Source: Leucobacter massiliensis (GTDB lineage: Bacteria; Actinomycetota; Actinomycetes; Actinomycetales; Microbacteriaceae). Taken from it: a DNA stretch of 64,000 nt. Numbering within the stretch: the stretch's first letter is position 1; every line of letters starts with the position of its first letter. The notes under the pieces were generated by a model. The model was given only the letters and a program-made list of their open reading frames with translations, was not told the origin of the DNA and did no database searches. The translations under genes were made by a program, and so were the position numbers. The DNA is taken from contig NZ_MWZD01000017.1 in assembly GCF_002982315.1 (NCBI RefSeq), positions 372,001 through 436,000 on the forward strand. The letters run 5' to 3'. Below, one piece after another: positions 26,656 through 57,831 of this stretch.

Positions 26656-27213
26656 ATGCATAACGGTAAGGGCTCCAATGCCCGCAAAATCGGGCCTATG
26701 ACCGAAGCGGTTGCGCAGGAGCTTAGGGCGGAACTTGCTCGGCAGCGACGTAGCGCAAAGAGCCTCGCCGAGTCGGCAGGCCTGAACCGGTCGACGCTGC
26801 ACAAAACGCTGAACGCTCAGAGGGCGATCGACGTTGATGATCTGTTCCACCTGGCGGATCTCTTGGACGTGAGCCCAAGCGAGATGTTTGCCAAGGCCGA
26901 AGCCCTGGCGCGAGCGGAACTCGATGACGGGCTTCTGCCCGGTGAGCGAGAGGGCATGCCCGCTGGGTACGAGTCGGGCGACATCAACTCGGATACTGAT
27001 CAGGATGTCGATGACGCATCTAATGTCGGTGGTTCCGGGCAAGATGCCACCGTGCACGATCTCAATGCACGACGCCAGGCAGCTGACCCCGACAGTGCGC
27101 TTGGCGCGGACCTTTCCGCGGACGAAGCGGCGGAACTCCTTAGAACCCATCGATACGCAGCAGACGAGCGGGACGGCCGCGACGAAGAAGCCGAAGCCGA
27201 TCCGCGCCCCTAG
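26656..27213 (+). CDS. phage repressor (XRE family)
   Basis: The product is 185 aa. The HTH lies at about 15-72 (MTEAVAQELRAELARQRRSA; KSLAESAGLNRSTLHKTLNA; VDDLFHLADLLDVSPSEMF). The rest is acidic and disordered-like (GDINSDTDQDVDDASNVGGS) with no LexA-type Ser-Lys protease domain. An ImmA-like protease gene follows 11 bases later, so inactivation by ImmA cleavage is likely. It is divergent from the Cro-like gene. Base composition is less GC-rich than structural genes. Confidence 0.87.
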   Translation: MHNGKGSNARKIGPMTEAVAQELRAELARQRRSAKSLAESAGLNRSTLHKTLNAQRAIDVDDLFHLADLLDVSPSEMFAKAEALARAELDDGLLPGEREGMPAGYESGDINSDTDQDVDDASNVGGSGQDATVHDLNARRQAADPDSALGADLSADEAAELLRTHRYAADERDGRDEEAEADPRP

Positions 27214-29699: not shown

Positions 29700-30395
29700 C
29701 TAGATCCGCGCGATCTCCTGCCGGGGGCGGACGGCCAGGTCGGTGATGTGCGCATCGGCGGGGGCGTCCACGACGAAGCGCACCGCGGCCGCGACGGACT
29801 CGGGACGGATGTACCGCTCCGGGGCGTACTGCTCCGCGGGGACCATCGCGCGCAGCATCGCCGTGTCGGTCTGGCCGGGCGCGACGGTCGCGACGCGCAG
29901 CCGGTGCGGCTCCTCGTCGATCCGCAGCACGTCCGCCACGGCGCGCAGCGCGTGCTTGGTGGCCGCGTAGACGGCGCTGCCGGGCACCGGACGCGTGCTC
30001 GCGCCCGAGCCGATGAACACCACCGTGCCCTGTGCCGCACGCAGCAGGGGCAGTGCGAGGCGCGTGAGCTCGGCCGGGGCCGTCACGTTGACCGCGAAGT
30101 GCTCCGCCCAGTCGGCCGCCCGGGCTGCCGCGACGCCGAGCGTGCGCGCGATCGCCGCCGCGTGCACGAGCACGTCGAGACGGTCGAGGCCCGCGACGTG
30201 CTCGGCGAGTCCCTCGGCGTCGCTCACGTCGAGCCGCCAGGTCTCGGCGCCGGTGTCTGCGGCGACCGCCTCGAGGCGGGCGGCGTCGCGGCCCACGGCG
30301 ACGATGCGGTGCGTGCGGGAGAGCTCACGGGCGATCTCCCGCCCCATGCCGCCTGAGGCGCCGGTGACGAGGGCTACGGGGCGGGGATCTGACAC
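29700..30395 (-). CDS. short-chain dehydrogenase/reductase (SDR)
   Basis: The product is 231 aa from a GTG at 30395 with AGAGAGGA upstream. Classical SDR features: VALVTGASGGMGREIAREL (cofactor loop, about 7-24), DVLVHAAA, Ser in VVFIGSGAS, and YAATKHA with the Tyr-Lys pair. It overlaps the end of the FAD/NAD(P) gene by 22 bases, so both are one transcript. The substrate is unknown. The pair lies divergent to a peptide-type ABC importer with AhpD-like domains, suggesting a shared oxidative pathway (inference). Confidence 0.88.
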   Translation of the reverse strand: MSDPRPVALVTGASGGMGREIARELSRTHRIVAVGRDAARLEAVAADTGAETWRLDVSDAEGLAEHVAGLDRLDVLVHAAAIARTLGVAAARAADWAEHFAVNVTAPAELTRLALPLLRAAQGTVVFIGSGASTRPVPGSAVYAATKHALRAVADVLRIDEEPHRLRVATVAPGQTDTAMLRAMVPAEQYAPERYIRPESVAAAVRFVVDAPADAHITDLAVRPRQEIARI

Positions 30396-32488
30396 GGGGC
30401 GTCCTCTCTTCGGTGCGCGGTGCCGGCGGTGCGGTGCGCCGCCCCGGCGATGCCCAGCGCGGTGCGGGCGACGCGATCTGTCTCGCGCAGCATGGGCGGG
30501 TCGGTGCCCGGCATGGGGCTGATGATGGTGCCGTGGACGGCCTCGTCGACGGGGATCCCGGCGATCAGGATCGCCGGATCCGGTGTGCCGTCGGCGCGGA
30601 TCAGCCTGCCGCTCGCCGCGTCGAGGTCGAAGGCTCCGGTGGTCCGTCCGGCTCCGCTGCGGTCCGCGACGGCGAAGGGCCGCGCCCGCCCGGCGGCGAG
30701 CAGGCTCGCGGCGAGCGGGTCCGCGGTTTCGCTGAGGCGGTGGAAGTGCATCCACGCGTCGATGAGCGCGGGGGCGACGAGCTCCGATCCCGCGACGGCC
30801 TCCGAGCGGGCCGCGAAGCCGCGCTCGTCGACGTCGAGCCGCGCGTCCGGGCCGATGAAGCGCACCAGGCCCTGCTCGGCGAGCGCCAGCAGCTGCCGGT
30901 TGCGGAAGGCGGGCGGGCCGGACCCCACCATGCCGCCGATGGCGGTCAGCAGCGCGTAGCCCGACTCGCGAGACTCGGCGTCGAAGCCGCCGAGCGTGCC
31001 GAGCACCCCCGCCGTGCCGCGGGCCTGGCTGATCGACCACAGCCCCGCCTTCACGGCGCTGTCGTGCCCGAGCTCCGCCTCGCGCAGGTCCGCGAGCACC
31101 CGCTGCCGCACCCAGGCGTCGAACTCGTCCGGGCTCGCGAAGTCCCGCTGCACGGGGAGCATCTCGGAGGCCAGATCGAAGCGCAGCGCGGGATCGGGCA
31201 CGAAGGGGGCGACGGCCTCGCCGATGCGGGCGGGCGCCTCGAAGAGCTCGCCGGCTGCTGCGGGATCCGCCAGCAGCGCGTCCACCGCCGCCTGGATCGC
31301 GCGCAGCAGCTCGGGCTCCTCGGCGGTGACGGAGCCGGGGCGCGCACGCCGCAGCGTCGCCGCGTGGTCGAAGTAGGCGTCGGCGACGATGCGCGGCCAC
31401 ACCACCCGGTTGAAGTCGATGGGGCGCGCGACGGCGGCCCAGTCGACGCCGCGGGCGAAGCGCTGCTCGGGGCTCGGCGGCAGCGACCCGTAGAGCGTCT
31501 TCGCGCGGAACGGCACGCCCCGGCGCGAGGTGACGTGCAGGATCGGCTCGCGGCCCGATGCCTCGTAGCGGAGCCCGGCGGGCGCCGCGGGATCCTCGAC
31601 GAAACGGCCGCCGCGTCCGATGGTGAGGAGCGCCATCGTGTCGAAGAAGCCCATGCCGAGCCCCCGCACGATCGCGGGCTCACCCGCCCGCACGGGCGAG
31701 AGATCCTGTTCGGCGGGGCTGCCGGGCCGTACCCAGCTCAGCCCGGGCCGTCCGGCGATCGCACGGGCGAGCTCCCGCTCGGCGGGGGTCGGGCTGCGCG
31801 GCATCCAGCCGGTGGCGAGCACGACGGCGTCCGCCGCGATCCGTTCCCCGCTGGCGAGACGCACGGATTCGCGTGCCGAGCCTTCGGCGCGCTCGACGCC
31901 CACGGCCCGGCTGCGGTGGCGGATGACGCGCACGCCCTCGGGCAGGCCCGCGACGGCGCGGTCGTAGCACCAGCTCAGGTACTCGCCGTAGAGGGCCCGG
32001 CTGGGGTGCGATTCGGGTCGCATCCGCGCGAGCTCATCCCGGTAGTCGGCGGCGAGCCCGGCGCGCACGGGGAACGAGGCGAAGGCGCGCTCGTGCGCGG
32101 ACGGGATCGCGGCGAGCGCGGCCGCGAACTCGGGATCGGTGCCGCCCCCGGGTGCGGAACTCTCGCCCGCCTCCCCCTCGCCTCGCACGAGCAGGCACCA
32201 CTCGTAGAGCGTGGGTCCCGGCCGCACGGGGCCGGCGACGGTGCTGCCCGGCTCCGTGAAGAGGGTCACGGCGTGCGCGAGCGTGTTCATGCAGAGCTCG
32301 CGGTGCTGATCGCTGCGCCAGATGCGGCCCGCGCCGGACGGGGCGTCATCGATGACGTGGAGCTCGAGTTCGAATCCGGCCTCCGCCTCCTCCGAGGACA
32401 GCTGCGCGCCGATCCGCTCGATGATGGAGGTGCCGCGCGGCCCAGCGCCGACGAGGGCGATCGAGGCGCGGTTCGGATCGGGGGTCAC
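30374..32488 (-). CDS. FAD/NAD(P)-binding oxidoreductase (COG4529-like)
   Basis: The product is 704 aa from a GTG at 32488. The dinucleotide fold is SIALVGAGPRGTSIIERI (about 8-25), typical of the NAD_binding_9 group, with DAVVLATGWMPRSPTPAE near 240 as second FAD contact. The C-terminal domain has LDAASGRLIRADGTPDPAIL and IISPMPGTDPPMLRETD. TATAAC lies 6 bases before the GTG, so the start may be leaderless; GGAGG is too close to serve well. The gene is divergent to the ABC operon (247-base gap). The substrate is unknown. Confidence 0.82.
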   Translation of the reverse strand: MTPDPNRASIALVGAGPRGTSIIERIGAQLSSEEAEAGFELELHVIDDAPSGAGRIWRSDQHRELCMNTLAHAVTLFTEPGSTVAGPVRPGPTLYEWCLLVRGEGEAGESSAPGGGTDPEFAAALAAIPSAHERAFASFPVRAGLAADYRDELARMRPESHPSRALYGEYLSWCYDRAVAGLPEGVRVIRHRSRAVGVERAEGSARESVRLASGERIAADAVVLATGWMPRSPTPAERELARAIAGRPGLSWVRPGSPAEQDLSPVRAGEPAIVRGLGMGFFDTMALLTIGRGGRFVEDPAAPAGLRYEASGREPILHVTSRRGVPFRAKTLYGSLPPSPEQRFARGVDWAAVARPIDFNRVVWPRIVADAYFDHAATLRRARPGSVTAEEPELLRAIQAAVDALLADPAAAGELFEAPARIGEAVAPFVPDPALRFDLASEMLPVQRDFASPDEFDAWVRQRVLADLREAELGHDSAVKAGLWSISQARGTAGVLGTLGGFDAESRESGYALLTAIGGMVGSGPPAFRNRQLLALAEQGLVRFIGPDARLDVDERGFAARSEAVAGSELVAPALIDAWMHFHRLSETADPLAASLLAAGRARPFAVADRSGAGRTTGAFDLDAASGRLIRADGTPDPAILIAGIPVDEAVHGTIISPMPGTDPPMLRETDRVARTALGIAGAAHRTAGTAHRREDAPCQIPAP

Positions 32489-32735
32489 CCCTCCGTTATA
32501 GGCCCTCGGGCTCGCAGCGCTGGCCGTGGATGACGGAGTGTGACGGCGGGGCGGCCGCGCGGGCCGGATGGGGGTGAACATGAAGCTCTGTGACGCTCCC
32601 GGTTTCTCATTTGCTTATGACACGTATAAGAATAGCCATCGTGCGCTTTCTTCGCGCACCGGCCGCCCGCGCGGCGGCCGCGCCCCGACGGCGGCTTTCC
32701 GGCCGGCCGTGACGAACACCCGAGGAGCCCCCCAC
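32489..32735. promoter_or_regulatory. divergent control region with palindrome CTTAT-N7-ATAAG
   Basis: The 247-base gap between the FAD/NAD(P) gene and the binding protein gene has an AT-rich island at 32600-32640. CTTAT at 32614-32618 and ATAAG at 32626-32630 form an inverted repeat, a possible repressor operator. A TATAAG motif (32625-32630) could serve as -10 with TTTCTC upstream at about 16 bases, but this is weak. The binding protein has GAGGAG near its ATG at 32736. Confidence 0.45.
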
Positions 32736-34370
32736 ATGAACAAGCGCCGTATCGCCTGGATCGGAGCACTCGCCGCCGTCGCCATCGCGATGACGGGCTG
32801 CGCCGCGAGCGGGGACGACGGGGGATCCGGCGACGCGGGCGGGACCCTCACCTACCTCGAACCGCAGACCTGGAACACGCTCTACCCGCCGGCCGGCGGC
32901 TTCTACCCCAACGGCGGCGTCCTCAACCAGGTCACGGATCGCCTGCTCTGGCAGGATCCCGAAACCCTGGAACTGGAGCCGTGGATCGCGACCGAGCTGC
33001 CCGAGGTGAACGCCGACGCGACCGAGTACACCTTCACGCTGCGCGAGGGCGTCACCTACTCCGACGGCACGCCCCTCGACGCGGAGAACGTCGTCAAGAA
33101 CTTCGATCTCTACGGCAAGGGCGACCCGGACCGGGCGCTCTCGGTCTCCGAGGCGATCAACAATTACGACCACGGTGAGGTCGTCGACGAGCACACGGTC
33201 AAGTTCTTCTTCACCGAGCCCTCGCCCGGCTTCGCGCAGGCCGTCTCCACCATCAACTCGGGTCTCGTCTCCAACGCCACCCTCGACCGCACGAGCGAGG
33301 AGTTCGGCCCCGGCAACGCGACCGAGATCATCGGCTCCGGCCCCTTCGTGATCTCCGACGAGCAACTCGGCAGCGAGCTGAAGCTCACCGCCCGCGAGGA
33401 CTACGACTGGGCCCCGCCCGCTCGCGAGCACCAGGGTCCCGCGCGGATCGACGGCATCGACATCGTCGTCGCGGGCGAGGACAGCGTCCGCGTCGGCACG
33501 GTGGTCGCCGGGCAGGCCGACATCGCCCGCACGATCCCCGCGCCCGATGAGCCGCAGTTCGCCGCCGACGGCCTCGAACTCGTGGCCGCGCCCACGAACG
33601 GCGTCAACAACAGCCTGAGCTTCCGCCCGACGAGCCCGCAGCTCAGCGACATCAGGGTGCGTCAGGCGATCATCGCGGGAGTCGACCGCCAGGCGATCGT
33701 CGACACGCTCTTCACCGACAGCTACCCGCTGGCCACGGGCATCCTCGCGAAGACGGCCCTCGGCTACGTCGACACCTCCGACGCCTACGTCCACGACCCC
33801 GACCGCGCGAAGCAGCTGCTCGACGAGGCCGGGTGGAAGCCGGGCTCGGACGGGGTGCGCGAGAAGGACGGGGAGCGGCTCTCCATCACCTTCAACGAGG
33901 CGCTGCCGCAGCCGCGCTCGAAGGAGGTCGTCACCCTCATCCAGGAGCAGCTGGCCCCCCTCGGCATCGAGGTGAAGCTCTTCCCCGGCGACCAGGCCGC
34001 CCAGGACGCCGCCCGCCTCGACGTCGGCACGATCCAGGTCTACCACTCCATGGTCGGCCGCGCCGACTTCGACGTGCTGAAGTCGCAGCTGTACTCCACG
34101 AACCGCAACGCGCTGCTCAACCTCGATCCGGCGACCGGGAAGGTCTTCGACCAGGAACTCGACGAGCTGCTCGCCCGCATCGCCTCGGTGCCCACCACCG
34201 AGGAGCGGCAGGCCGCCTCGGCCGCGGCGCAGGAGCGCCTGGTGGAGCAGGCCTACGTGCTGCCCCTCTTCGAGGAGCCGCAGGTGTTCGGCCTCACCTC
34301 GAAGGTCAGCGGCTTCGAGACCGAGTCGATCGGCCGCCCCTCCTTCTACGAAGTGCAGCTCGAACGGTGA
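32736..34370 (+). CDS. ABC transporter substrate-binding lipoprotein (family 5 / TIGR04028-like)
   Basis: The product is 544 aa. Signal peptide with lipobox AMTGC, Cys22. The mature start TLTYLEPQTWNTLYPPAGGF, FYPNGGVLNQVTDRLLWQDP and VTYSDGTPLDAENVVKNFDL are the pattern of family 5 binding proteins; the first phrase fits what I recall of the KPN_01854 family (TIGR04028). It captures a peptide-like or related ligand outside the membrane. GGAG lies 9 bases before the ATG. It is the first gene of a five-gene plus-strand unit. Confidence 0.88.
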   Translation: MNKRRIAWIGALAAVAIAMTGCAASGDDGGSGDAGGTLTYLEPQTWNTLYPPAGGFYPNGGVLNQVTDRLLWQDPETLELEPWIATELPEVNADATEYTFTLREGVTYSDGTPLDAENVVKNFDLYGKGDPDRALSVSEAINNYDHGEVVDEHTVKFFFTEPSPGFAQAVSTINSGLVSNATLDRTSEEFGPGNATEIIGSGPFVISDEQLGSELKLTAREDYDWAPPAREHQGPARIDGIDIVVAGEDSVRVGTVVAGQADIARTIPAPDEPQFAADGLELVAAPTNGVNNSLSFRPTSPQLSDIRVRQAIIAGVDRQAIVDTLFTDSYPLATGILAKTALGYVDTSDAYVHDPDRAKQLLDEAGWKPGSDGVREKDGERLSITFNEALPQPRSKEVVTLIQEQLAPLGIEVKLFPGDQAAQDAARLDVGTIQVYHSMVGRADFDVLKSQLYSTNRNALLNLDPATGKVFDQELDELLARIASVPTTEERQAASAAAQERLVEQAYVLPLFEEPQVFGLTSKVSGFETESIGRPSFYEVQLER

Positions 34371-35353
34371 CGCTCGGCCTGCTGGCGCGCCGCGTGGGCC
34401 AGGCCTTCCTGGTCCTCGCGCTCGCCTACACCGCGGCCTACGTGCTGCTCGCGGCCCTGCCCGGCGACGCCGTGCTCGCGCGCTACGGCAACCCGGAGCT
34501 CGGGCTGAGCCCCGAGCAGCTGGCCGAGATCCGCGCCACCTACGGCGTCGACCGGCCGTTCATCGCCCGCTACCTCGACTCGATCGGGGCCTTCCTGCGC
34601 GGTGACTTCGGCTACTCCGTCTACAGCGGGGCGAAGGTCTCCGACATGATCGCCGAGGCGCTCCCCTCCACGCTCACCCTGGCGGGCATCGCGCTCGTCG
34701 GGGCGGTCTTCCTCGCGGTGGTCATCGCCTTCACCGCGAGCTTCGGCCCGGGGCGGTGGCTGCGCGGCCTGTTCCGCAATCTGCCGCCGCTGTTCGTCTC
34801 GCTGCCGGTGTTCTGGATCGGGATCGTGCTCATCCAGGTCTTCTCCTTCAAGCTCGGCCTGGTGCCGGTGATCGGCGCGAGTCCGGCGCAGGCCCTGATC
34901 CTGCCCGCCATCACGCTGATGATCCCCATTGCGGCGCCGCTCGCGCAGGTGTTCCTGCGGAGCATCGACGAGGTGCGCGAGCAGCCCTTCGTGGCCGTCG
35001 TGCGCGCCCGCGGCGCCAGCACCTCATGGCTGCTGTGGCGCAACGTCGCCCCGAACGCGCTGCTGCCGGCACTGACCATGGCCGGCCTCCTCTTCGGCGA
35101 GCTGGTGGGCGGCGCGATCGTCACGGAGGCCGTGTTCGGGCGGGTGGGGATCGGCAGCCTCACCGCCCAGGCCGTCGCGCAGCGCGACACCCCCGTGCTG
35201 CTCGCGGTCGTCGTGATCGCCACCGTCGTCTTCGTCACGATCAACCTCGTGGTCGATCTGCTCTACCCGGTCCTCGACGCGCGGCTGCGCCGCAGCGGCA
35301 CGGCGACCCGCACCCCCACCCGATCCGCCACCTCGGCAGGAGGAACCCGATGA
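34367..35353 (+). CDS. ABC transporter permease (DppB-like)
   Basis: The product is 328 aa from a GTG overlapping the binding protein stop (GTGA). About six transmembrane helices are visible (VLALAYTAAYVLLAALPG; LTLAGIALVGAVFLAVVIAF; AIVTEAVFGRVG region; VVVIATVVFVTINLVVDLLY). The EAA loop reads FVAVVRARGASTSWLLWRNV. The family signature GDFGYSVYSG and ATYGVDRPF are also present. Pairs with the next permease to form the channel. Confidence 0.9.
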   Translation: MTLGLLARRVGQAFLVLALAYTAAYVLLAALPGDAVLARYGNPELGLSPEQLAEIRATYGVDRPFIARYLDSIGAFLRGDFGYSVYSGAKVSDMIAEALPSTLTLAGIALVGAVFLAVVIAFTASFGPGRWLRGLFRNLPPLFVSLPVFWIGIVLIQVFSFKLGLVPVIGASPAQALILPAITLMIPIAAPLAQVFLRSIDEVREQPFVAVVRARGASTSWLLWRNVAPNALLPALTMAGLLFGELVGGAIVTEAVFGRVGIGSLTAQAVAQRDTPVLLAVVVIATVVFVTINLVVDLLYPVLDARLRRSGTATRTPTRSATSAGGTR

Positions 35354-36264
35354 CCGCGATCACGACGGCCGCAGAGGCGACCCCGGGATCCGGCGCCGGC
35401 CTCGGCGGCCCCGGGGAGGGCGCAGGCGGACCGGCCGCGAGCGGCGTGCGCGGGCCTGGCTCGTGGCGCGCCCTGCTGCGCCCCTCGTTCATCCTTCCCG
35501 CCATCATCCTGCTGTTCGCGCTCGCGTGGGCGGTGGCACCGGGCGTCTTCGCCTCGGGCAGCCCGACGGCGCAGGCCGGCGCGGCGCTCCAGGCGCCGAG
35601 CGCCGAGCACTGGTTCGGCACGGACGCCACCGGCCGCGACCTCTACACGCGGGTGGTGTACGGCGCCTCCCAGTCGCTCAGCGCGGCGCTCATCGCCGTG
35701 CTCGTCGGCCTCGTCTTCGGCTCCCTCATCGGGGTGAGCGCCGGCGCGGTCGGCGGCCGCGTCGACGGCGTGCTCATGCGCCTCGTCGACGTGCTCCTCG
35801 CGATCCCCACGCTGCTGCTCTCACTGAGCATCGTGATCCTGCTCGGCTTCGGCACCGCGAACGCGGCGATCGCAGTGGGCGTCACCTCCGTGGCGGTGTT
35901 CGCCCGGCTCTCGCGCTCGCAGGTGGTGAGCGTGCGGGCGAGCGAGTTCGTGGAGGCCGCCTATGGTTCGGGCGGCACCTTCGCGAGCGTGCTGTGGCGG
36001 CATGTGCTGCCCAACTCGCTGACCCCGGTGATCGCGCTCGCGGCGCTGCAGCTCGGCTCCGCGATCCTGCAGATCTCCACTCTCGGCTTCCTCGGCTACG
36101 GGGCGCCGCCGCCCACACCCGAGTGGGGGCTGCTCATCTCCGAGGGCCGCGACTACGTCGCGACGGCCTGGTGGCTGACCACCTTCCCCGGCCTCGTCGT
36201 GGCCATCGTCGTGATCGCCACGAACCGCCTGAGCCGGGCGATCGGCGGGGGAGGGGAGCGATGA
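35350..36264 (+). CDS. ABC transporter permease (DppC-like)
   Basis: The product is 304 aa; the ATG overlaps the previous stop. Residues 1-35 are a Gly/Ala/Pro-rich tail of low complexity, then the DppC N-terminal helix (FILPAIILLFALAWAVAPGV), HWFGTDATGRDLYTRVVYGA and the EAA loop VVSVRASEFVEAAYGSGGTF with VLPNSLTPVI. It is the second membrane subunit. Typical full length apart from the added N-terminal tail. Confidence 0.9.
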   Translation: MTAITTAAEATPGSGAGLGGPGEGAGGPAASGVRGPGSWRALLRPSFILPAIILLFALAWAVAPGVFASGSPTAQAGAALQAPSAEHWFGTDATGRDLYTRVVYGASQSLSAALIAVLVGLVFGSLIGVSAGAVGGRVDGVLMRLVDVLLAIPTLLLSLSIVILLGFGTANAAIAVGVTSVAVFARLSRSQVVSVRASEFVEAAYGSGGTFASVLWRHVLPNSLTPVIALAALQLGSAILQISTLGFLGYGAPPPTPEWGLLISEGRDYVATAWWLTTFPGLVVAIVVIATNRLSRAIGGGGER

Positions 36265-38033
36265 GCGCGCCGCTGCTGAGCATCCGCGATCTCGCGGTCG
36301 AGTACCGCACCGGCCGCGGCACCGTCGAGGCGGTGCGCGGTGTCGGCTTCGATGTCGAGCCCGGGCGGGTGACCGCCGTCGTGGGCGAGTCCGGGTCGGG
36401 CAAGAGCACCGTCGCCCAGTCCGTCATCGGGCTGCTGCCCCCGAACGGGCGGATCGTGCGGGGCGAGATCACGCTGAACGAGCGGCGCCTGGGCGAGACG
36501 CAGCTGGTGGGGCTGTCCGAGCGCCGCTGGCGCGATCTGCGGGGGCGCTGCATCGGCCTCATCCCGCAGGATCCGGGCAACTCGCTCAACCCGGTGCAGC
36601 CCATCGGCAAGAGCATCAGCGAGTCGCTGCGCATCCACGGACGGCCCAGCCGCGAGGAAGTGCGGGATCGGGTCCACGCCCTCCTCGAACAGGTCGGCAT
36701 CGACGACCCGATCCGCCGCGCGAAGCAGTATCCGCACGAGTTCTCTGGCGGGATGCGGCAGCGGGTGCTCATCGCGGCCGCGATCGCGGGCAACCCGGAA
36801 CTCATCATCGCCGACGAGCCGACGAGCGCCCTCGACGTCACCGTGCAGCGCACCGTGCTCGATCTCATCGACCGCCTGCGCGAGGAGACTGGCACCGGGG
36901 TGCTGTTCATCACGCACGACCTGGCGGTGGCGGCCGACCGCGCCGACACCGTCGTGGTGATGCGCGGCGGCGAGGTGCAGGAGTCGGGGCCGAGCGCGCG
37001 GGTGCTCGCCCGGCCGGAGTCGGCCTACACGCGGCAGCTGATGGCCGACGCGCCCTCCTTCGGGAGGCTCGTGACCCGTGAGCCCATCACGGTGCGGGCT
37101 CGCGCGGAGACGGCGATTCCCGGCACGGGTGCGGGGCAGGGAAGCGCCGCCGCCGCGGAGCAGGTGCTGGAGGTGCGCGGCCTGCAGCAGCGCTTCGGCC
37201 GCGGCGCCGACGCCTTCGTCGCCGTCGACGACGTGTCCTTCACGGTGACGCGGGGCACGACCCACGCGCTCGTCGGCGAGTCGGGCTCGGGGAAGACGAC
37301 GACCGGCCGCGCCATCGCCGGCTTCGCGCGGCCGAGCGCCGGCAGCGTGCGGGTCTTCGCGGCCGCGGAGGCCGCCGGCGGTGAGGGGCCGGGATCCGGA
37401 TCCGGATCACGCCGGGGACCGGGCCCTGCCGGCGGCGTGCAGCCGGGGATCGAGGTGACGGAGCTCCGCGGCCGCGCGCTGCGCGAGTTCCGCAAGACCA
37501 CGCAGATGGTCTACCAGAACCCCTACGGCTCGCTCGATCCGCGGCTCTCCGTCGGCCAGACGCTCGCCGAGCCGCTGCGCAACTTCGGCATCGGCGCGCG
37601 GCGGGAGCACGAGGCGCGCGTCGGGCAGGCGCTCGAGCTCGTCGCGCTGCCCCGCGACTTCACGCATCGCCGGCCGCGCGAGCTCTCGGGCGGCCAGCGG
37701 CAGCGCGTGGCCATCGCACGGGCGCTGATCCTCGAACCCGAGCTCGTGGTGCTCGACGAGGCCGTCTCGGCGCTCGACGTCACCGTCCAGGCGCAGATCC
37801 TGCGGCTGCTCGCGCAGCTGCAGCAGGAGCTCGGCCTCAGCTACGTGTTCATCTCGCACGACCTGGCCGTGGTGCGGCAGATCGCCGACACCGTATCCGT
37901 GCTGCAGCGCGGCCGGCAGGTCGAGCACGGCCGCACGGAGCAGGTCTTCGCGCAGCCGCAGCACCCCTACACGCAGCGCCTCATCGACGCCATCCCCGGG
38001 GCCTCCCTCGCCTCGGGACACTGGCAGATCTGA
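36261..38033 (+). CDS. fused double ABC ATPase (DppD-DppF-like)
   Basis: The product is 590 aa with two nucleotide-binding domains. Domain 1 has Walker A GESGSGKST at 42-50, signature FSGGMRQRV and Walker B LIIADEPTSALD. Domain 2 has Walker A GESGSGKTT near 338, signature LSGGQRQRV and Walker B LVVLDEAVSALD. Between them is an Ala/Gly linker; an extra Gly/Ser/Arg-rich insert lies after FARPSAGSVRVFAAAEAAGG. Such a fused pair powers oligopeptide-type importers. The ATG overlaps the permease stop. Confidence 0.93.
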   Translation: MSAPLLSIRDLAVEYRTGRGTVEAVRGVGFDVEPGRVTAVVGESGSGKSTVAQSVIGLLPPNGRIVRGEITLNERRLGETQLVGLSERRWRDLRGRCIGLIPQDPGNSLNPVQPIGKSISESLRIHGRPSREEVRDRVHALLEQVGIDDPIRRAKQYPHEFSGGMRQRVLIAAAIAGNPELIIADEPTSALDVTVQRTVLDLIDRLREETGTGVLFITHDLAVAADRADTVVVMRGGEVQESGPSARVLARPESAYTRQLMADAPSFGRLVTREPITVRARAETAIPGTGAGQGSAAAAEQVLEVRGLQQRFGRGADAFVAVDDVSFTVTRGTTHALVGESGSGKTTTGRAIAGFARPSAGSVRVFAAAEAAGGEGPGSGSGSRRGPGPAGGVQPGIEVTELRGRALREFRKTTQMVYQNPYGSLDPRLSVGQTLAEPLRNFGIGARREHEARVGQALELVALPRDFTHRRPRELSGGQRQRVAIARALILEPELVVLDEAVSALDVTVQAQILRLLAQLQQELGLSYVFISHDLAVVRQIADTVSVLQRGRQVEHGRTEQVFAQPQHPYTQRLIDAIPGASLASGHWQI

Positions 38034-38097
38034 GCCGTTCCCGTCCCGCCCGTCCCGCCCGTCCCTGAGACGCTTCGCGAGCCCCGAGAGGAAACCC

Positions 38098-39429
38098 ATG
38101 ACCGCACCGACCGCATCGCGATCCGACATCCCCGACATCATCGACGCGCTCACCGCGATCGCGCCGGGCGATCCGCTCGACGCCGCCCGGAGACGCCGCC
38201 CCGAAGCCCGCGAGCACGCGCAGGGCAGCTTCGCGGCGCTGTTCGTGCCGGACGACGAGAGCCATGTCTCGCTGCCCGAGCGGGCCGCGGTCGCGCTCTT
38301 CGTGGCGCGCCTGCACGGGCAGCCCGCAGCGGTCGCCTTCACGGGAGCGCTGCTGCGCGAGACCGGCGGCGGGGCGGGCCTCGAACCGCTGATCGTCGCG
38401 GAGGCCGAGCGGGCTGCGGGATCCGGCCCCTACGGCGCCTTCCGCGCCGAGAACGCGCCCGAGAGCACGGCCGGACCGGTCTACGAGGTCAGCACCGTCG
38501 AGGCCGCCTACGCCCTCGGCGACCGGCTGGCCGCCGCGCTGGAGCACGCGCACCTGCTCGTGCTGCACCCGCGCGATGCGAGCCGCGAGCACCTCCAGCG
38601 CCTGCTCGACGCGGGGTGGAGCAGCACCGGCGTGGTCACGCTCTCGCAGCTCATCGCCTTCCTCAGCTTCCAGTTCCGCGTGGTGCAGGGACTCGGCGCA
38701 GTGCGCGCCGCCGACGGCGGAGCCGAGGCGGCGGACGCCGATCTCGAAGCCCTCGCCGCCGGGGTGGCGCGGGCCGCCCGGGCTCGGTTGGACGGCGCCG
38801 CTTCCGGTTCCGGCGCGGCTTCCGGCTCCGGCGCGACCGAGCAGCTGCCGCCGCCTCCGCGCGTCACCGAGCCGCCCCGCTTCACGCAGGACGCCCTCGG
38901 CTGGAAGCCGTGGCTCGAACCGCTCCCCGTCGCGGACTTCACCGACCGCCACTACGAGGCGCTCGTGGAGCGCGAGCGGGTGCACATGCCCTACTTCCGC
39001 GTGCTCGCCCGCGACCCCGAGGCGCTGCGCGAGCGCACCCTCACCGACCTCGACATCTTCCACAACGCCGATGCGGGGCTGCCGCGGGCCGAGCGGGAGC
39101 TCGCCGCGGCCGCGGCCTCGCGCTTCAACGGCTGCGTGTTCTGCGCCTCGGTGCACTCGCGCTTCGCCACCGAGCAGGGGGCGGATCGCGCGGAGGTGCA
39201 GCGGCTGCTCGACGAGGGCGTGGGCGCCCGCTTCGGCACCCGCTGGGACGGGCTGATCGATGCGACCGTGGCCCTCACCCGCACGCCGTCCGCCTTCGGT
39301 GCCGCCGAGGTGGCCGCGCTGCGCGGGGCGGGCTTCGACGAGCTGGAACTGCTCGACGCGATCCAGGCCGGAGCCTTCTTCAACTGGGCGAACCGCCTGA
39401 TGCTCTCCCTCGGCGAGCCGACGGTCTGA
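38098..39429 (+). CDS. fused CMD/alkylhydroperoxidase (AhpD-like) protein
   Basis: The product is 443 aa. Residues 1-228 resemble the CMD family recalled as Avi_7170 (DIIDALTAIAPGDPLDAAR; PERAAVALFVARLHGQPAAV). A linker of Ala/Ser/Gly/Pro (about 230-262) follows. Residues 263-443 resemble Avi_7169 alkylhydroperoxidase domains (FTQDALGWKPWLEPLPVADF; TLTDLDIFHNADAGLPRAER) with the active CxxC in FNGCVFCASVH (Cys346, Cys349, His353). In related loci these are two proteins, so this is a fusion. It follows the ABC genes by 64 bases. Probably a peroxide- or disulfide-linked reaction on the imported compound (inference). Confidence 0.85.
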   Translation: MTAPTASRSDIPDIIDALTAIAPGDPLDAARRRRPEAREHAQGSFAALFVPDDESHVSLPERAAVALFVARLHGQPAAVAFTGALLRETGGGAGLEPLIVAEAERAAGSGPYGAFRAENAPESTAGPVYEVSTVEAAYALGDRLAAALEHAHLLVLHPRDASREHLQRLLDAGWSSTGVVTLSQLIAFLSFQFRVVQGLGAVRAADGGAEAADADLEALAAGVARAARARLDGAASGSGAASGSGATEQLPPPPRVTEPPRFTQDALGWKPWLEPLPVADFTDRHYEALVERERVHMPYFRVLARDPEALRERTLTDLDIFHNADAGLPRAERELAAAAASRFNGCVFCASVHSRFATEQGADRAEVQRLLDEGVGARFGTRWDGLIDATVALTRTPSAFGAAEVAALRGAGFDELELLDAIQAGAFFNWANRLMLSLGEPTV

Positions 39430-39457: not shown

Positions 39458-40063
39458 CTAGTCGCTCCGCCCCGCCGCCTGCTCCGCATCCGGCCCCGTC
39501 TCCGGTTCCTCGGCGGCGGTGCGGCGGAGGTGCAGCCGCTCACCGACCGTGTTGAAGATGCTGACCACCTCGGCGGCCCGGGTGCCGGCGGCCCGCATGC
39601 GGTGGGGGGTGGTGGTGTCGAACTCGGCCGCCTCGCCGCGGCCGAGCAGGTGCTGGCGCTCCCCGAGGTCGAGCTGCAGCCGGCCCGAGAGCACGTAGAG
39701 CCACTCGTGGCCCTCGTGTGCCTGCAGCTCCCGCTCCGGCGCGCCCGGGTGGTAGGTGATCTTGTAGGCGCGGACCTCCGAGGCCTCTCGGGTGAGCGGG
39801 GCGATCGTCATGCCGTCGCGGGTGACGGGGCGGCGCCGCACGCGCGGGTCCCGCTCGGGGGAGTCGAGCAGATCGTCGACGCGGATCCCGAGCTGCCGGG
39901 TGAGCGGGAGCAGCAGTTCGAGGCTCGCCTGCCGCTTGCCGGATTCGAGCCGGGAGAGGGTGCTCACCGACATGCCGGCTCGGCCGGCGAGCTCGTCGAG
40001 CGTCCAGCCGCGCTCCTGGCGTGCGGCACGCAGGCGGGGGCCGGGGCTGCGCAGTTCTTCCAT
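39458..40063 (-). CDS. XRE-cupin transcriptional regulator
   Basis: The product is 201 aa from an ATG at 40063 with GGAGTA upstream. The HTH is at about 9-65 (LRAARQERGWTLDELAGRAG; MSVSTLSRLESGKRQASLEL), followed by a cupin (ITYHPGAPERELQAHEGHEW; LYVLSGRLQLDLGERQHLLG; HRMRAAGTRAAEVVSIF). It probably controls the divergent flavoprotein gene and itself. GCAA-N6-TTGC at 40087-40100 is a candidate operator. Ligand unknown. Confidence 0.9.
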   Translation of the reverse strand: MEELRSPGPRLRAARQERGWTLDELAGRAGMSVSTLSRLESGKRQASLELLLPLTRQLGIRVDDLLDSPERDPRVRRRPVTRDGMTIAPLTREASEVRAYKITYHPGAPERELQAHEGHEWLYVLSGRLQLDLGERQHLLGRGEAAEFDTTTPHRMRAAGTRAAEVVSIFNTVGERLHLRRTAAEEPETGPDAEQAAGRSD

Positions 40064-40086
40064 GGCGGATACTCCTTGCCGGTTCT

Positions 40087-40100
40087 GCAAATGTGATTGC
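40087..40100. promoter_or_regulatory. candidate operator GCAA-N6-TTGC between divergent genes
   Basis: GCAAATGTGATTGC has inverted ends GCAA/TTGC and lies in the 70-base gap between the XRE-cupin regulator and the flavoprotein gene, close to both starts. It is the only clear dyad in the gap. Confidence 0.4.
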
Positions 40101-40133
40101 CAGTATCGCATGTGTCCGGGCAGCATGGTCGGC

Positions 40134-41198
40134 ATGGACCACACACCTCGCACCCCCGCACCCGCCACGCCTCACCCCGCCGATCAGGCGGCCCCCTGGG
40201 ACGCCGTCGTGATCGGCGGCAGCGCCGCGGGCCTCAGCGCCGCGCAGGCCCTCGGCCGAGCCCTCCGGCGCACGCTCGTCATCGACTCGGGCAGTCCCCG
40301 CAACCGCTTCGCAGCGCAGATGCACAACGTGCTCGGCCACGACGGCACCCCGCCCGGCGAACTCGCGGCGCGCGGCCGCCAGGAGGCGGCCCGCTACGGG
40401 GTGGTCTTCCGTGAGGCCGCGGTGCGTACGGTACGCGACGGAGACGGCGTGACGGGCCCCGCGGGCGACGGCGCGGGATCCCCGCCGTCCGTCCACATCG
40501 AGCTGGACGGCGGTGAGACCGTCGCGGCACGCGCCATCATCGTCGCCACGGGCGTGCGCGACGAACTGCCGGCGATCCCGGGCCTCGCCGAGCACTGGGG
40601 CAGCGGTGTGCTGCACTGCCCCTACTGCCACGGCTGGGAGGAGCGCGGGGGACGTCTCGCGGTGATCACCACGTCGCCCCTCGGACTGCACCAGGCAAAG
40701 CTGCTGCGGCAGTGGAGCGACGAGCTCACGGTCTTCACCGCGGGGCTCGGTGCGCTCGACGCCGAGACCGAGGCGCTGCTGCTCGCGCGCGGCGTCCGGC
40801 TCGTGGCTGAGCCGGTGGCCGAGGTGCGGGGCGACGGATCCCGGGTCTCCGCCGTGCGCACCGCCACCGGGGAGGAGTACGCCGTCGATGCGATCTTCAC
40901 CGCGAGCGCGACGGTGCCGCGCGACGGCTTCCTCGACGAGCTCGGACTGCGCCGGACGGAGACACCCGGCGGTGCGCCCGTGCTCGCGGTCGACGCGATG
41001 GGCCGCACGAGCCACCCGCGCATCTGGGCGGCGGGCAACGTCGTCACCCCCTTCGCCTCGGTGCCGATGGTGATGGGCGCCGGCACCTTCGCGGGCGCGG
41101 CCGTGAACGCGGCGCTCGTGGAGGAGGACTTCGCGCGCGCTGCGGCCCTCGTGGCGGCGCAGCGCTCTCCCGCCGGAGCGGAGGTGCGGGATGCGTGA
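40134..41198 (+). CDS. thioredoxin reductase-like FAD oxidoreductase (CPYC motif)
   Basis: The product is 354 aa. FAD site AVVIGGSAAGLSAAQAL at about 25-41 (GGSAAG), then IIVATGVRDELPAIPG and active-site Cys162/Cys165 in LHCPYCHGWE. The C-terminal FAD contact is RIWAAGNVVTPFASVPMVMG. The CPYC pair differs from the CATC of classical TrxB, as in related actinobacterial flavoproteins. It may reduce a small disulfide carrier. Next gene overlaps by 8 bases. Confidence 0.88.
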   Translation: MDHTPRTPAPATPHPADQAAPWDAVVIGGSAAGLSAAQALGRALRRTLVIDSGSPRNRFAAQMHNVLGHDGTPPGELAARGRQEAARYGVVFREAAVRTVRDGDGVTGPAGDGAGSPPSVHIELDGGETVAARAIIVATGVRDELPAIPGLAEHWGSGVLHCPYCHGWEERGGRLAVITTSPLGLHQAKLLRQWSDELTVFTAGLGALDAETEALLLARGVRLVAEPVAEVRGDGSRVSAVRTATGEEYAVDAIFTASATVPRDGFLDELGLRRTETPGGAPVLAVDAMGRTSHPRIWAAGNVVTPFASVPMVMGAGTFAGAAVNAALVEEDFARAAALVAAQRSPAGAEVRDA

Positions 41199-41892
41199 CG
41201 CGGCGGCGCACGACGGGCGCCACACGGCTCAGGGTCACCGGGGGCGCGGGCACGGGGAGCACGACCCGCACGAGGATCCCACGCGGTTCTGGGAGCGGCT
41301 CTACGGGGAGAGCGCCGTGTGGTCTGGGCGGGTCAACGCGAGCCTCGCGGCCGTGGCCGAGGCGTGGGAGCCGGGCCGCTCGCTCGACCTCGGCTGCGGC
41401 GAGGGCGGGGACGTGCTGTGGCTCGCCGAGCGCGGCTGGCGGGCGAGCGGCGTCGACCTCTCGGAGACCGCGGTCGCCCGTGCCCGAGCGGCCGCGGCGG
41501 AGCGCGGCCTCACCGCCCGCTTCATCGCCGCCGATCTCGGGGAGTGGATCGCGCACCCCGAGCAGCATGACGCGGCCGGATCCTTCGACCTCGTCACCGC
41601 CAGCTTCCTGCAGTCGCCGGTGGAGCTGCCGCGGGAGCGGATCCTGCGCGCCGCCGCGGGGCTCGTCGCGCCCCGCGGCCGGCTCGTGGTGATCTCGCAC
41701 GCCGCCCCGCCTGCGTGGGCCTCGGATCATCCCGGCCCCTTCCCCTCTCCGCAGAGCGAGCGCGAGCTGCTGGCACTCGACCCCGAGCGCTGGGAGCTCG
41801 CCGCCGAGCTGCGCAGCCGCGAGGCGACCGCCCCCGACGGCACGCCCGCGAGCCTCACGGACACCGTTCTCGTCGCCCGCCGCCGCGGGTGA
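41191..41892 (+). CDS. class I SAM-dependent methyltransferase
   Basis: The product is 233 aa. Motif I LDLGCGEGGDVLWLAERGW (about 65-83), motif II GVDLSETAVARA, and later FDLVTASFLQSPVELPRER. The His-rich N-terminus (GHRGRGHGEHDPHEDP) is unusual. The gene overlaps the flavoprotein stop by 8 bases, so co-transcription is likely. The fold resembles TehB/UbiE-type enzymes, but the substrate is unknown. Confidence 0.85.
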   Translation: MRDAAAHDGRHTAQGHRGRGHGEHDPHEDPTRFWERLYGESAVWSGRVNASLAAVAEAWEPGRSLDLGCGEGGDVLWLAERGWRASGVDLSETAVARARAAAAERGLTARFIAADLGEWIAHPEQHDAAGSFDLVTASFLQSPVELPRERILRAAAGLVAPRGRLVVISHAAPPAWASDHPGPFPSPQSERELLALDPERWELAAELRSREATAPDGTPASLTDTVLVARRRG

Positions 41893-55111: not shown

Positions 55112-56512
55112 TCAGAGCCGGTCGAGGGCGTGGCGCAGGTCGCGGATCAGGTCCTCGGCGGATTCGAGCCCCACGGAGAGGCGCAGCAGGCCGGGCGTGA
55201 TCCCGAGCCGCTCGTTCAGCTCGGGAGCGAAGGTCGAGTGCGTCGAGCTGAGCGGGTGGATCACCATCGAGCGGGTGTCGCCGATCCCGGTCATGCGCGA
55301 GAACACCCGCAGCCCGTTCACGAAGGCGCGCGCCCCCTCGATCCCGCCGCGCACCGTCACGCCGAACACGGAGCCGGTGCGTCCCCGTCCCTCGGCGTCC
55401 GCCCCGTAGTCGCGCACGGCGCGAGCGTGCAGCGGGTTCGAGGGCAGTCCGGCGTAGTCGACCGACTCCACCTCGGGCTGCTGCTCCAGCCAGGCCGCGA
55501 TGCGGATGGCCGACTCGACGTGCCGCTCCATGCGCAACGACAGGGTCTCCATGCCCTGGTGCAGCAGGAAGCCGTGCAGCGGCGAGAGCGTCGGCCCGAT
55601 GTCGTTGACGACCGACTCGCGCACCGCGCGCGCATAGGCGCCGCGGCCGAAGCGCTCGAGCATGGGGGCCACGCCCGCCCGGCTCGACTGCGTGATGAGC
55701 GGGAAGGAGCGGCCTGCCCGCTCGGCGGCCGCCCAGTCGAAGTTGCCGCCGTCGACGATCGCGCCGCCGACGGCCGCCCCGTGGCCCGTGAGGAACTTGG
55801 TCGTCGAGTGCACCACGACGTTCGCCCCGTGCTCGAAGGGGCGGATCAGCGCGGGTGTGCCGACGGTGTTGTCGACCACGAGCGGCAGGTGATGGCGGGC
55901 GGCGACCTCGGCGATGCGCCGCAGATCGGTCACGTCGTTGCAGGGGTTCGGCACGGTCTCGGTGAAGATGGCCTTCGTCTCGGGGCGGATCGCGCGCTCC
56001 CACTCGGCGTCGTCATCGGCGTCCCAGACGTAGTCGAAGCCGATGCCGAAGCGCGCGAAGCTACGGCCGAAGAGGATGCGGGTGCCCCCGTAGATGGAGG
56101 CGGTCGAGACGATGTGGTCGCCGTGCTGGGCGAGGGCGAGGAGCGCTGAGGTGATCGCCGCCTGGCCGCTCGACACCGCGACCGAGACGACCCCGCCCTC
56201 CAGCGAGGCGAGGCGCTCCTCGGCGACCCAGTTCGTCGGATTGCCCTGGCGGCTGTAGATGGGGGCGTGCTCACTGGGGGACGGGGCGGTCGCCCGGCCC
56301 GCGTGGTCTTCAGCCCGCCAGTGGATGCTCCCGTCGAAGCGGCTCACCTGGTCGTCGAAGTCGTCGAAGAGGTAGCCGGCGGACAGGGCGATCGGCGGCA
56401 CGCGCAGCCCGTGGTTCCGGTCGGGGTACTCGCCGGCGTGCACCTGGCGCGTCTCGAAGCCGAAGCCGTCCCAGTCGTAGACGGGAGGTTCGGGGCGTGG
56501 GGAGGAGCTCAT
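55112..56512 (-). CDS. metY: O-acetylhomoserine aminocarboxypropyltransferase (sulfhydrylase)
   Basis: The product is 466 aa from an ATG at 56512 with GAAGGCCCC-type leader. Cys/Met metabolism PLP fold: GNPTNWVAEERLASLEGGVV, SIYGGTRILFGRSFARFGIG, VDNTVGTPALIRPFEHGANV and the PLP Lys in VHSTTKFLTGHG. Late RLSVGLESAEDLIRDL. It makes homocysteine or methionine from O-acetylhomoserine. The PatB-like gene lies 62 bases upstream on the same strand. Confidence 0.92.
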   Translation of the reverse strand: MSSSPRPEPPVYDWDGFGFETRQVHAGEYPDRNHGLRVPPIALSAGYLFDDFDDQVSRFDGSIHWRAEDHAGRATAPSPSEHAPIYSRQGNPTNWVAEERLASLEGGVVSVAVSSGQAAITSALLALAQHGDHIVSTASIYGGTRILFGRSFARFGIGFDYVWDADDDAEWERAIRPETKAIFTETVPNPCNDVTDLRRIAEVAARHHLPLVVDNTVGTPALIRPFEHGANVVVHSTTKFLTGHGAAVGGAIVDGGNFDWAAAERAGRSFPLITQSSRAGVAPMLERFGRGAYARAVRESVVNDIGPTLSPLHGFLLHQGMETLSLRMERHVESAIRIAAWLEQQPEVESVDYAGLPSNPLHARAVRDYGADAEGRGRTGSVFGVTVRGGIEGARAFVNGLRVFSRMTGIGDTRSMVIHPLSSTHSTFAPELNERLGITPGLLRLSVGLESAEDLIRDLRHALDRL

Positions 56513-56574: not shown

Positions 56575-57831
56575 TCATCGCTCGGGCAGCGCTGTGGCGA
56601 TGCGCCTGACGGCCTCGCGGATCGTGTCGGGCGCGCAGGCGAGGTTGATGCGGGCGTGCCCGGAGCCTCCGGCGCCGAAGGCGGGCCCGCTGTTCAGGGC
56701 GACGCGGGCCGCATCGCGCAGCCGCCGGGCGGGGTCCTCCCCGAGCCCGGCTGCGCGGAAGTCGAGCCAGTTGAGGTAGCCGGCGCGGGATCGGGTGCGG
56801 CGGACGCCGGGCAGGCGATCCCGCAGCAGCTCGCCGAAGAGCCGCTCGTTCGACTCGATCTGCGCGACGGCGCGTTCGAGCCAGTCGCGGCTCTCGGCGA
56901 AGGCGGCGATGCTCGCGTGCAGGCCGAGGATGCTGGTGCGGCAGGCCACCTCGGGCGGCAGACCGCGCAGCGTCGCGTTCGCGCGCTCGTCGGCGGCGAC
57001 GATCACCGAGCATTTCGTGCCGGCGATGTTCCAGCCCTTGCTCGCCGAGGTGACGGTCACGGCGAGCGCCCCGGCCGCTGCGGCCAGCGGGGCGAAGGGG
57101 GTGAAGGGCTCGCCCGCGTGCGTGAGCGGGGCGTGGATCTCGTCGGAGATCACGAAGACGCCGTAGCGGGCGGCGAGCTCGGCGAGCCGGCTCAGCTCCT
57201 CCGCCGAGTGGATGAGCCCGTGCGGATTGTGCGGGCTGCACAGCAGGAAGGCGTCGATGCCGGGCTCGCCCGCGAAGGCCCGCTCGATGGCGTCGAGGTC
57301 GAGACGGGGGGCGGGAACCGCGGCGGGATCCCCGTCCGGCTCCTCGGAATCGGCGGCCGCGGCGCCGGGCTCCCGCGCCAGCGGCACCTCGACCACCTCG
57401 AACGGCACCTCGTCGAGCATCTCGAAGAAGCTCGGATAGACCGGCGTGGGGAGCAGGAGCCGCCCGCCCCGCGGGAGGAAGCGCCGCAGCGATTCGACGA
57501 TTCCGGTGGCCACGTCGGTCGCGAGATGGATGCGGTCGTGCGGGATCTCCCAGCCCCAGCGATCCCGTGCGAAGCCGGCGAAGGCCGGGGCGAGCGGGCC
57601 TGGGCCGTCGAGGTAGCCGGTGTCGGAGGCGCGGATCCGCTCGATGAGGGTGCGCTGGATCGCGGGTGCGACGGCGAAGTCCATCTCGGCGACGAAGAGC
57701 GGCAGCACCCCGGCCGGGTAGCGCGTCCACTTCAGGCTCGTGCGCTCGCGGCGCAGCAGGGCGGGATCGAGTTCGGCGAAGGGCACACCGCCCGGATCGG
57801 TACAGTCCTCGTGGTCGCTCATGCCCTCCAT
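56575..57831 (-). CDS. PatB/MalY-type C-S lyase (PLP)
   Basis: The product is 418 aa. PatB features: FAELDPALLRRERTSLKWTR, LPLFVAEMDFAVAPAIQRTL, LLCSPHNPHGLIHSAEELSR, VISDEIHAPLTHAG and the PLP Lys in SASKGWNIAGTKCS. It cleaves cystathionine or similar to release thiols. A low-complexity Ala/Asp/Glu/Pro insert lies at about 155-175. MSDHED at 57822 is an alternative start. It forms one transcript with the sulfhydrylase. Confidence 0.88.
   Translation of the reverse strand: MEGMSDHEDCTDPGGVPFAELDPALLRRERTSLKWTRYPAGVLPLFVAEMDFAVAPAIQRTLIERIRASDTGYLDGPGPLAPAFAGFARDRWGWEIPHDRIHLATDVATGIVESLRRFLPRGGRLLLPTPVYPSFFEMLDEVPFEVVEVPLAREPGAAAADSEEPDGDPAAVPAPRLDLDAIERAFAGEPGIDAFLLCSPHNPHGLIHSAEELSRLAELAARYGVFVISDEIHAPLTHAGEPFTPFAPLAAAAGALAVTVTSASKGWNIAGTKCSVIVAADERANATLRGLPPEVACRTSILGLHASIAAFAESRDWLERAVAQIESNERLFGELLRDRLPGVRRTRSRAGYLNWLDFRAAGLGEDPARRLRDAARVALNSGPAFGAGGSGHARINLACAPDTIREAVRRIATALPER

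Follow-up and report, generated by a model that had tools for sequence, protein, structure and literature searches.

Organization of the Locus

A transport and redox locus lies at positions 29700–39429 of a 64,000-nucleotide stretch of Leucobacter massiliensis DNA (contig NZ_MWZD01000017.1, positions 372,001–436,000; hereafter the window), within a genome of 3.14 Mb. It encodes an ABC importer with a binding protein of the TIGR04028 family, a fused CMD-AhpD protein and, divergent from this block (32736–39429, forward strand), a large FAD/NAD(P) flavoprotein (FAD protein) and a short-chain dehydrogenase/reductase (SDR; Table 1). A first-pass annotation made from the sequence alone had read all of these genes as one catabolic or detoxifying locus. 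Its coordinates, domain names and cysteine numbers proved correct; the importer and CMD-AhpD genes stand as one unit and the FAD protein belongs with them, the SDR being a loose partner.

Table 1. Features of the locus in the window
Feature	Position	Strand	Assignment
SDR	29700-30395	-	NF006073/PRK08219, 262.9 bits (cut-off 218)
FAD/NAD(P) flavoprotein	30374-32488	-	PF13454 as sole family match
Palindrome CTTATGACACGTATAAG in the divergent gap between FAD gene and importer	32614-32630	.	Conserved in Leucobacter; probable (predicted) operator of both units
Solute-binding lipoprotein, TIGR04028 (KPN_01854 family)	32736-34370	+	871.6 bits (cut-off 468.5)
ABC permease 1, peptide/nickel class	34367-35353	+	Family profiles
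ABC permease 2, peptide/nickel class	35350-36264	+	Family profiles
ABC ATPase, two fused nucleotide-binding domains	36261-38033	+	Family profiles
Fused CMD-AhpD protein	38098-39429	+	TIGR04029, 190.4 bits (cut-off 100.75), residues 13-200; TIGR04030, 277.7 bits (cut-off 233.15), residues 259-441

The models TIGR04027–TIGR04030 are annotated as 'hypothetical equivalogs' and are found in actinobacteria, enterobacteria and rhizobia. The KPN_01854/KPN_01858/Avi_7169/Avi_7170 locus that they describe resembles that of Leucobacter in importer family, CMD and AhpD-like domains and gene order, and the annotated Klebsiella locus of this type has one 363-aa gene in the place of CMD-AhpD. Unlike the KPN_01858-type locus, that of Leucobacter has no luciferase-like monooxygenase (LLM; TIGR04027) and carries instead the divergent PF13454 flavoprotein, followed by the SDR. 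The locus families are already described. A literature search under the name KPN_01854 found no paper, one for 2-succinocysteine returned nothing useful for the locus, and the name KPN_01858 appears in at least one part of an iron-limitation proteomics paper.

Alternation of Two Monooxygenases

The binding protein scored above the TIGR04028 cut-off in 16 of 150 family genomes, the window's own included; these genomes, drawn from a larger group, also served for the FAD, LLM and SDR searches. The locus was compared with 15 further family loci (one of them, L038, only 3.5 kb long) and with 80 loci from named organisms, which are the best 80 matches of one scan with the binding-protein alignment rather than a random sample. 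Genes in the compared loci (numbered L; genomes, G) were mapped by tblastn, and duplicates (L033, L036, L040, and L043) were removed before counting. For the monooxygenase count, the 12 of 96 rows with short flanks were excluded, leaving 84 rows, or 80 without duplicates, the window included; the locus of Leucobacter coleopterorum (L056) was entered as FAD type despite its FAD gene being in three pieces. These pieces (L056:7766-9794) lie in different frames, and the ATPase gene is in two, reflecting either decay or sequence error.

Loci without the FAD gene have a TIGR04027 LLM between the ATPase and CMD genes (498.5 and 549.9 bits in two examples; cut-off 412.9). The two enzymes exclude each other within a locus: 45 of the 84 long-flank rows have only the LLM, 38 only the FAD gene, none has both and one (L093) has neither, with corresponding counts of 43, 36, 0, and 1 for the 80 non-duplicate loci. 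The other enzyme type gave no match at E ≤ 1e-8 in any classified locus; among the 12 excluded rows, six have the FAD gene and six have neither enzyme in the available DNA. No TIGR04027 match at E ≤ 1e-80 was found anywhere in the window's genome, which bears out the earlier observation that the LLM is absent and an FAD protein is present in its stead, the rule of one or the other per locus having been missed.

When the FAD/LLM state was mapped on a tree of 88 binding proteins, five changes were counted, three of them forced by well-supported branches, as compared with a mean of about 29 after shuffling, and a single FAD clade on this tree was rejected (p-AU 3.2e-81). Rothia holds both types, in one species each (FAD, L094; LLM, L122). 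The FAD proteins themselves form one group; two copies without linkage to the importer (L137 and L138) fall inside it or next to it, support for placing these two outside being weak. Apparently, then, members of a single flavoprotein subfamily joined more than one importer background. The families and the exclusivity suggest that the FAD protein does here what the LLM does elsewhere; the exchange would predict a shared substrate, which either enzyme could be used to find. Nothing on an exchange between the LLM and CreE-like flavoproteins was found in the open literature, in searches that were not aimed exactly at that point.

At E ≤ 1e-80, a copy of the FAD protein occurs in nine family genomes and lies beside the importer in seven, and the linkage spans Microbacteriaceae, Corynebacteriaceae, and Micrococcaceae, which places this protein in the locus. 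The SDR family scored above its cut-off in 38 of the 150 genomes and adjoins the importer in only eight of them, so that the SDR was rejected as a core part. Occurrence of the FAD/SDR pair without the importer in most genomes had been named at first pass as the contrary outcome; this test would tell against the SDR and does not refute the FAD protein. Of 42 FAD-type loci, 22 have an SDR of at least 120 bits less than 600 bases away, as do 2 of 43 LLM-type loci; in Leucobacter the SDR may act as a helper outside the core. A second, distant paralogue of the FAD protein (37–38% identity; G000:C16:92279-94243) lies within a 1638-aa open frame of the window's genome.

The same choice of enzyme recurs beside a second importer, of branched-chain type, which is accompanied by LLM, CMD, and AhpD in L141–L144 and by FAD protein, CMD, and AhpD in L138 (Pfam was applied to L138 and L142 only); the CMD and AhpD matches of L138 fall slightly below the curated cut-offs, at 98.7 (cut-off 100.75) and, on the match interval, 208.2 (cut-off 233.15). 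The monooxygenase and CMD/AhpD therefore resemble a catalytic module, though not a rigid one, able to combine with more than one importer. An amine-oxidase-like gene (TIGR01377, below cut-off; DAO) adjoins the FAD-type module of L138 (L138:10690-11847), and similar genes lie near L052, L056, and L057.

In a collection of 72,556 plasmid records, 182 match the binding protein at E ≤ 1e-60 (64 from Pantoea and 61 from Rhizobium), a set that includes proteins that are not TIGR04028 members; FAD relatives at E ≤ 1e-20 were found there only in Streptomyces (35), Arthrobacter (2), and Parageobacillus (2).

The Flavoprotein and CMD-AhpD Protein

The sole PDB relative of the FAD protein is 8CP2/8CP5 (E 6.8e-78 with the single sequence and 6.4e-119 with a 34-row profile), to which it is distantly homologous over nearly its full length. 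8CP2 is an L-aspartate N-hydroxylase of Streptomyces sp. V2 that is related to CreE and FzmM, and its active-site residues are taken here as listed in the portion of the structural report that deals with them (PMC10404684). These residues were mapped by hand from a printed alignment and the columns counted over 40 rows. Equivalents of Arg13 (an aspartate contact), Trp51 (which stacks on the flavin) and Asn62 are invariant (40/40); Arg412 is retained in 38 rows, and the Arg266 position has Lys in 38 rows and Arg in the other two. Arg276, Arg409, Asn413, Arg416, and Arg577 are retained in no row, with Met at the Arg577 position in 35 of 40; Arg276, Asn413, Arg416, and Arg577 are four of the five aspartate contacts. 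Because the flavin-site residues are kept and these four contacts are lost, the protein probably uses its cofactors in much the same way and probably acts on a substrate other than aspartate, as judged from the aligned residues; it is thus related to the aspartate N-hydroxylases without belonging to them. It also differs from these CreE/FzmM-type enzymes in context, its gene adjoining an importer and theirs lying in a biosynthetic cluster.

The CMD and AhpD domains are fused in one frame in 35 of the 77 rows that have both and separate in 42 (34 and 40 of 74 without duplicates); annotated Pantoea and Klebsiella loci have a single CMD-AhpD gene of about 365 aa, and annotated Rhizobium and Roseateles loci have two genes. 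Since single-gene forms are so common, the fusion is an ordinary variant and no peculiarity of this locus, and it was dropped as the key novelty. FAD type accounts for 33 of the 35 fused rows and LLM type for 40 of the 42 split rows, an association that is not significant, with 3 to 5 independent contrasts on the tree. One locus scored as split (L124) has one stop in the matched stretch, yet a 395-aa frame spans both domains and the protein is probably fused after all.

Glu334, Cys346, Cys349, and His353 are invariant in all 29 aligned fusions, in the arrangement Glu-x11-Cys-x-x-Cys-x3-His (29/29 rows), which we take to be the spacing of Mycobacterium tuberculosis AhpD; the CMD domain has no Cys in 24 of these rows. 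In contrast to AhpD alkylhydroperoxidase, the AhpD-like half in Leucobacter is fused to CMD, and no AhpC gene is present among the genes identified in the locus.

Regulation and Linkage to Methionine Genes

The palindrome of the window's divergent gap follows the pattern [CG]TTATG-N5-YATAA[CG]. Of the 20 rows from Leucobacter and close relatives, 11 have an exact copy no more than 400 bases from the importer and 7 have a copy with one mismatch; L101 has no site, and L095 has no upstream DNA. Only one further site with at most one mismatch was found elsewhere in the 1.79 Mb scanned. This conservation suggests that a regulator could control the FAD and importer genes jointly through the palindrome.

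The corresponding gap in Corynebacterium carries a different palindrome, TAGAC-N6-GTCTA, presumably the McbR consensus. In 12 of 18 Corynebacterium loci, a copy with at most one mismatch (seven of them perfect) stands no more than 400 bases ahead of the binding-protein match, as compared with 0.5% of mononucleotide shuffles; three of the other six loci have two mismatches and three have three, and all of the named Corynebacterium loci searched are of FAD type. Eleven of the 12 sites fall in the interval from the called FAD frame to the importer, and that of L096 lies inside the longest possible FAD frame, past its matched part. Outside the importer stretches, five such sites occur in 333 kb, and in four cases (L096, L106, L107, and L108) a metB-like match follows within about 100 bases downstream; the gene in L108 is a cystathionine gamma-synthase (683.2 bits, cut-off 513).

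C. glutamicum cg2678–cg2674 resembles the Leucobacter locus in its binding protein, permease, duplicated ATPase and CMD/AhpD protein, as matched by published annotations only; its FAD partner and its orthology would follow from the named Corynebacterium loci. Sulfur regulation of this counterpart is already described: cg2678–74 are among the McbR-regulon genes that are less transcribed without the sulfur regulator CysR, according to the part of the study concerned with them (PMC2580772), and cg2674, cg2675, cg2677, and cg2678, with annotations that match this gene order, are marked McbR* in the pertinent table of another (PMC2807442). In addition, cg2678 is induced under total starvation, in a list with ssu genes and metY (PMC6892785).

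A SAM riboswitch as common control was rejected, since only a single SAM-IV was found in seven loci, and none was found at 27000–64000 of the window. That element (L100:9722-9841, Nesterenkonia) precedes metY on the same strand, between this gene and the importer.

Of the 77 loci flanked by at least 8.5 kb on either side, 18 have a MetY/MetB-like gene scoring at least 150 bits no more than about 10 kb away: 9 of 13 from Corynebacterium, 4 of 4 from Agrococcus, 2 of 2 from Nesterenkonia, 1 of 19 from Microbacterium and those of G049 and G121. The density of PF01053 matches in 40 family genomes (117 in all) predicts roughly 0.02 per 20 kb by chance, or 1–2 of 77, an estimate that used other thresholds than the locus count and a control set without Corynebacterium. 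Because the counts cluster by genus, about five lineages is the fairer number. Three Agrococcus loci (L099, L103, and L116) and L044 (G049) have metY-metF-metE preceding the importer head-to-tail, and L104 has metY only; in L037 (G121), metE follows directly after the ATPase gene, with metF and metY behind it, and in L140 the LLM-CMD-AhpD genes lie between metF-metE and metY, with three other open reading frames in between. MetE and the cystathionine gamma-synthases exceed at least one curated cut-off. In Pantoea (L131), the locus adjoins a second cluster with two LLMs, an amidohydrolase, a GNAT protein and amino-acid ABC genes, which we take to resemble S-alkylcysteine salvage. No link of TIGR04027–TIGR04030 to methionine genes was found in the open literature, again with searches not aimed exactly at it.

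Proposed Function and Alternatives

On balance, the locus probably scavenges sulfur by organosulfur uptake and flavin-dependent oxygenation, with the sulfur passing to MetY/CysK. As the family membership of its proteins indicates, the importer likely takes up a compound, which would be a small organosulfur molecule, probably derived from an amino acid or peptide. The divergent FAD/NADPH flavoprotein would oxygenate it with O2, at or next to the sulfur or at an amine, so that the C–S bond breaks; in other bacteria, the structurally unrelated LLM would perform the same step, each locus having one or the other. CMD-AhpD, through its CXXC pair within the invariant Glu-Cys-Cys-His set, may reduce or capture the oxidized product (a hydroperoxide or a sulfenate-like species), and the freed sulfur would be used by MetY/CysK, as regulation and gene linkage in relatives suggest; the nature of the substrate and the extension of the sulfur role to Leucobacter are inferred. 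Importers with a flavin monooxygenase for sulfur salvage are presumably found also in the S-alkylcysteine/2-succinocysteine operons of Bacillus subtilis, from which the window's locus differs in that its genes include no acetyltransferase/deacetylase pair. A more specific version, which we regard as a tentative proposal with the chances against it, is that one sulfur-salvage oxygenation is served by two flavoenzymes of unrelated fold that replace one another within the locus, the LLM (a TIM barrel) and the CreE-like flavoprotein (class B): amine oxygenation of an amino-thioether would labilize its beta C–S bond, an N-oxygenase scaffold would thereby cleave C–S, and CMD-AhpD would take the sulfur product.

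The sulfur role is favored because of the exclusivity of the two monooxygenases, the five state changes, the recurrence of the same choice beside a second importer, the McbR marks, the palindromes, the methionine gene linkage and the second Pantoea cluster. An unusual sulfur compound was one of several substrates guessed at first pass and is now the best supported, through regulation and the methionine linkage in relatives. Tying TIGR04027–TIGR04030 to the supply of sulfur and methionine would provide a concrete assay for families for which no settled substrate was found.

Several observations weigh against this reading. Exclusivity is a property of the locus and does not extend to whole genomes: an LLM locus coexists with a separate FAD gene in G003 and G129, and an FAD locus with a separate LLM in G071. 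Neither the separate FAD gene of G003 (L137) nor the separate LLM of G071 (L139) is accompanied by CMD, AhpD or either type of importer. Eight of 79 monooxygenase loci lack one or both CMD halves; in Corynebacterium L115, two FAD paralogues flank the importer and CMD-AhpD is absent, and L117 is the same in the available DNA. The crystallized relative of the FAD protein hydroxylates nitrogen rather than oxygenating sulfur. In none of the 16 Leucobacter rows does a MetY/MetB-like gene of at least 150 bits occur within about 10 kb: in the window, metY (55112–56455; 447.5 bits, cut-off 703) and a PatB-like C–S lyase (56575–57831; 254.6 bits, cut-off 340) are about 16 kb away, both too far to count, and the MetY and MetF assignments are best matches below their cut-offs. 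The reduced, 1.4-Mb genome G005 keeps importer, FAD protein and SDR (L036/L062, without CMD-AhpD) and has no PF01053 enzyme at E ≤ 1e-50. No TAGAC-N6-GTCTA site with up to two mismatches was found near the window's importer, and a regulon search found no second exact copy of the window's palindrome in the genome, so that a sulfur regulon is not demonstrated for the Leucobacter locus. Even in C. glutamicum, CysR lost its effect on other McbR genes when McbR and SsuR were inactive, and its effect on cg2678–74 is therefore probably indirect.

The locus might instead take up an amine or amino acid, as a nitrogen source or an opine- or metallophore-like compound, with the FAD protein as an ordinary N-hydroxylase and the corynebacterial sulfur regulation secondary. 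The aspartate N-hydroxylase is indeed the only PDB homologue found; nickel-, oligopeptide-, glutathione- and opine-type families give the highest scores for the permeases and, after TIGR04028, for the binding protein; and amine-oxidase-like genes lie near L138, L052, L057, and L056. Four of the five aspartate contacts are gone, however, the alternative enzyme is an LLM, and sulfur regulation and methionine linkage recur in several lineages, so that we consider this explanation rather unlikely. Less likely again is general redox defense under sulfur or thiol stress, in which a peptide importer is joined to a peroxide-defense protein and the FAD protein or LLM acts in the same response. The AhpD-type residues of CMD-AhpD would fit it, as would the behavior of cg2674, whose upregulation was confined to a rel-deficient mutant and accompanied by that of sod, tpx and cys genes, and the raised NADH/NAD+ ratio reported for a cg2674 deletion in the part of the source used here; it leaves unexplained the choice of one monooxygenase or the other and the head-to-tail arrangement of metY-metF-metE with the importer genes.

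That the FAD and SDR genes are mere neighbors carried along with the importer by descent is improbable: linkage of the FAD gene in seven of nine genomes and in three families, its exclusivity with the LLM and the conserved gap palindromes argue against it, and the explanation stands for the SDR only, which mostly lies elsewhere in the genomes that have its family. Degradation of synthetic polycarboxylates, which we regard as very improbable, is brought up by the Klebsiella LLM PCX02514, which is close to the TIGR04027 family and for which cleavage of poly(acrylic acid) is reported in the relevant part of PMC11354265; among solved structures, that of this protein (8K74) gave the highest score with one LLM tested (408.7 bits). 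The kinetic part of the same report gives a kcat of 0.00214 per s and activity with NADPH but not with reduced flavin, the parts cited contain no genetics (PMC11354265), and a peptide-type importer is unlikely to bind a long polymer; the slow cleavage is probably not the natural role. Because a positively charged cavity is described for PCX02514 in that portion of the report (PMC11354265), an anionic substrate would suit the enzyme.

Neighboring Features

A prophage at 4927–29419 stops just to the left of the locus; all seven of its genes that were tried match PHROGs (major head protein, portal, terminase, SSB, RecT, RecE-like exonuclease, and integrase). A tRNA or tmRNA had been suspected by eye at the phage boundary, and ARAGORN gave none in the window. 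Downstream, 39458–41892 encodes an XRE-cupin regulator, a thioredoxin-reductase-like protein and, as judged by eye, a probable methyltransferase; the XRE-cupin regulator gene, the thioredoxin-reductase-like gene or both again adjoin the locus in several Leucobacter genomes.

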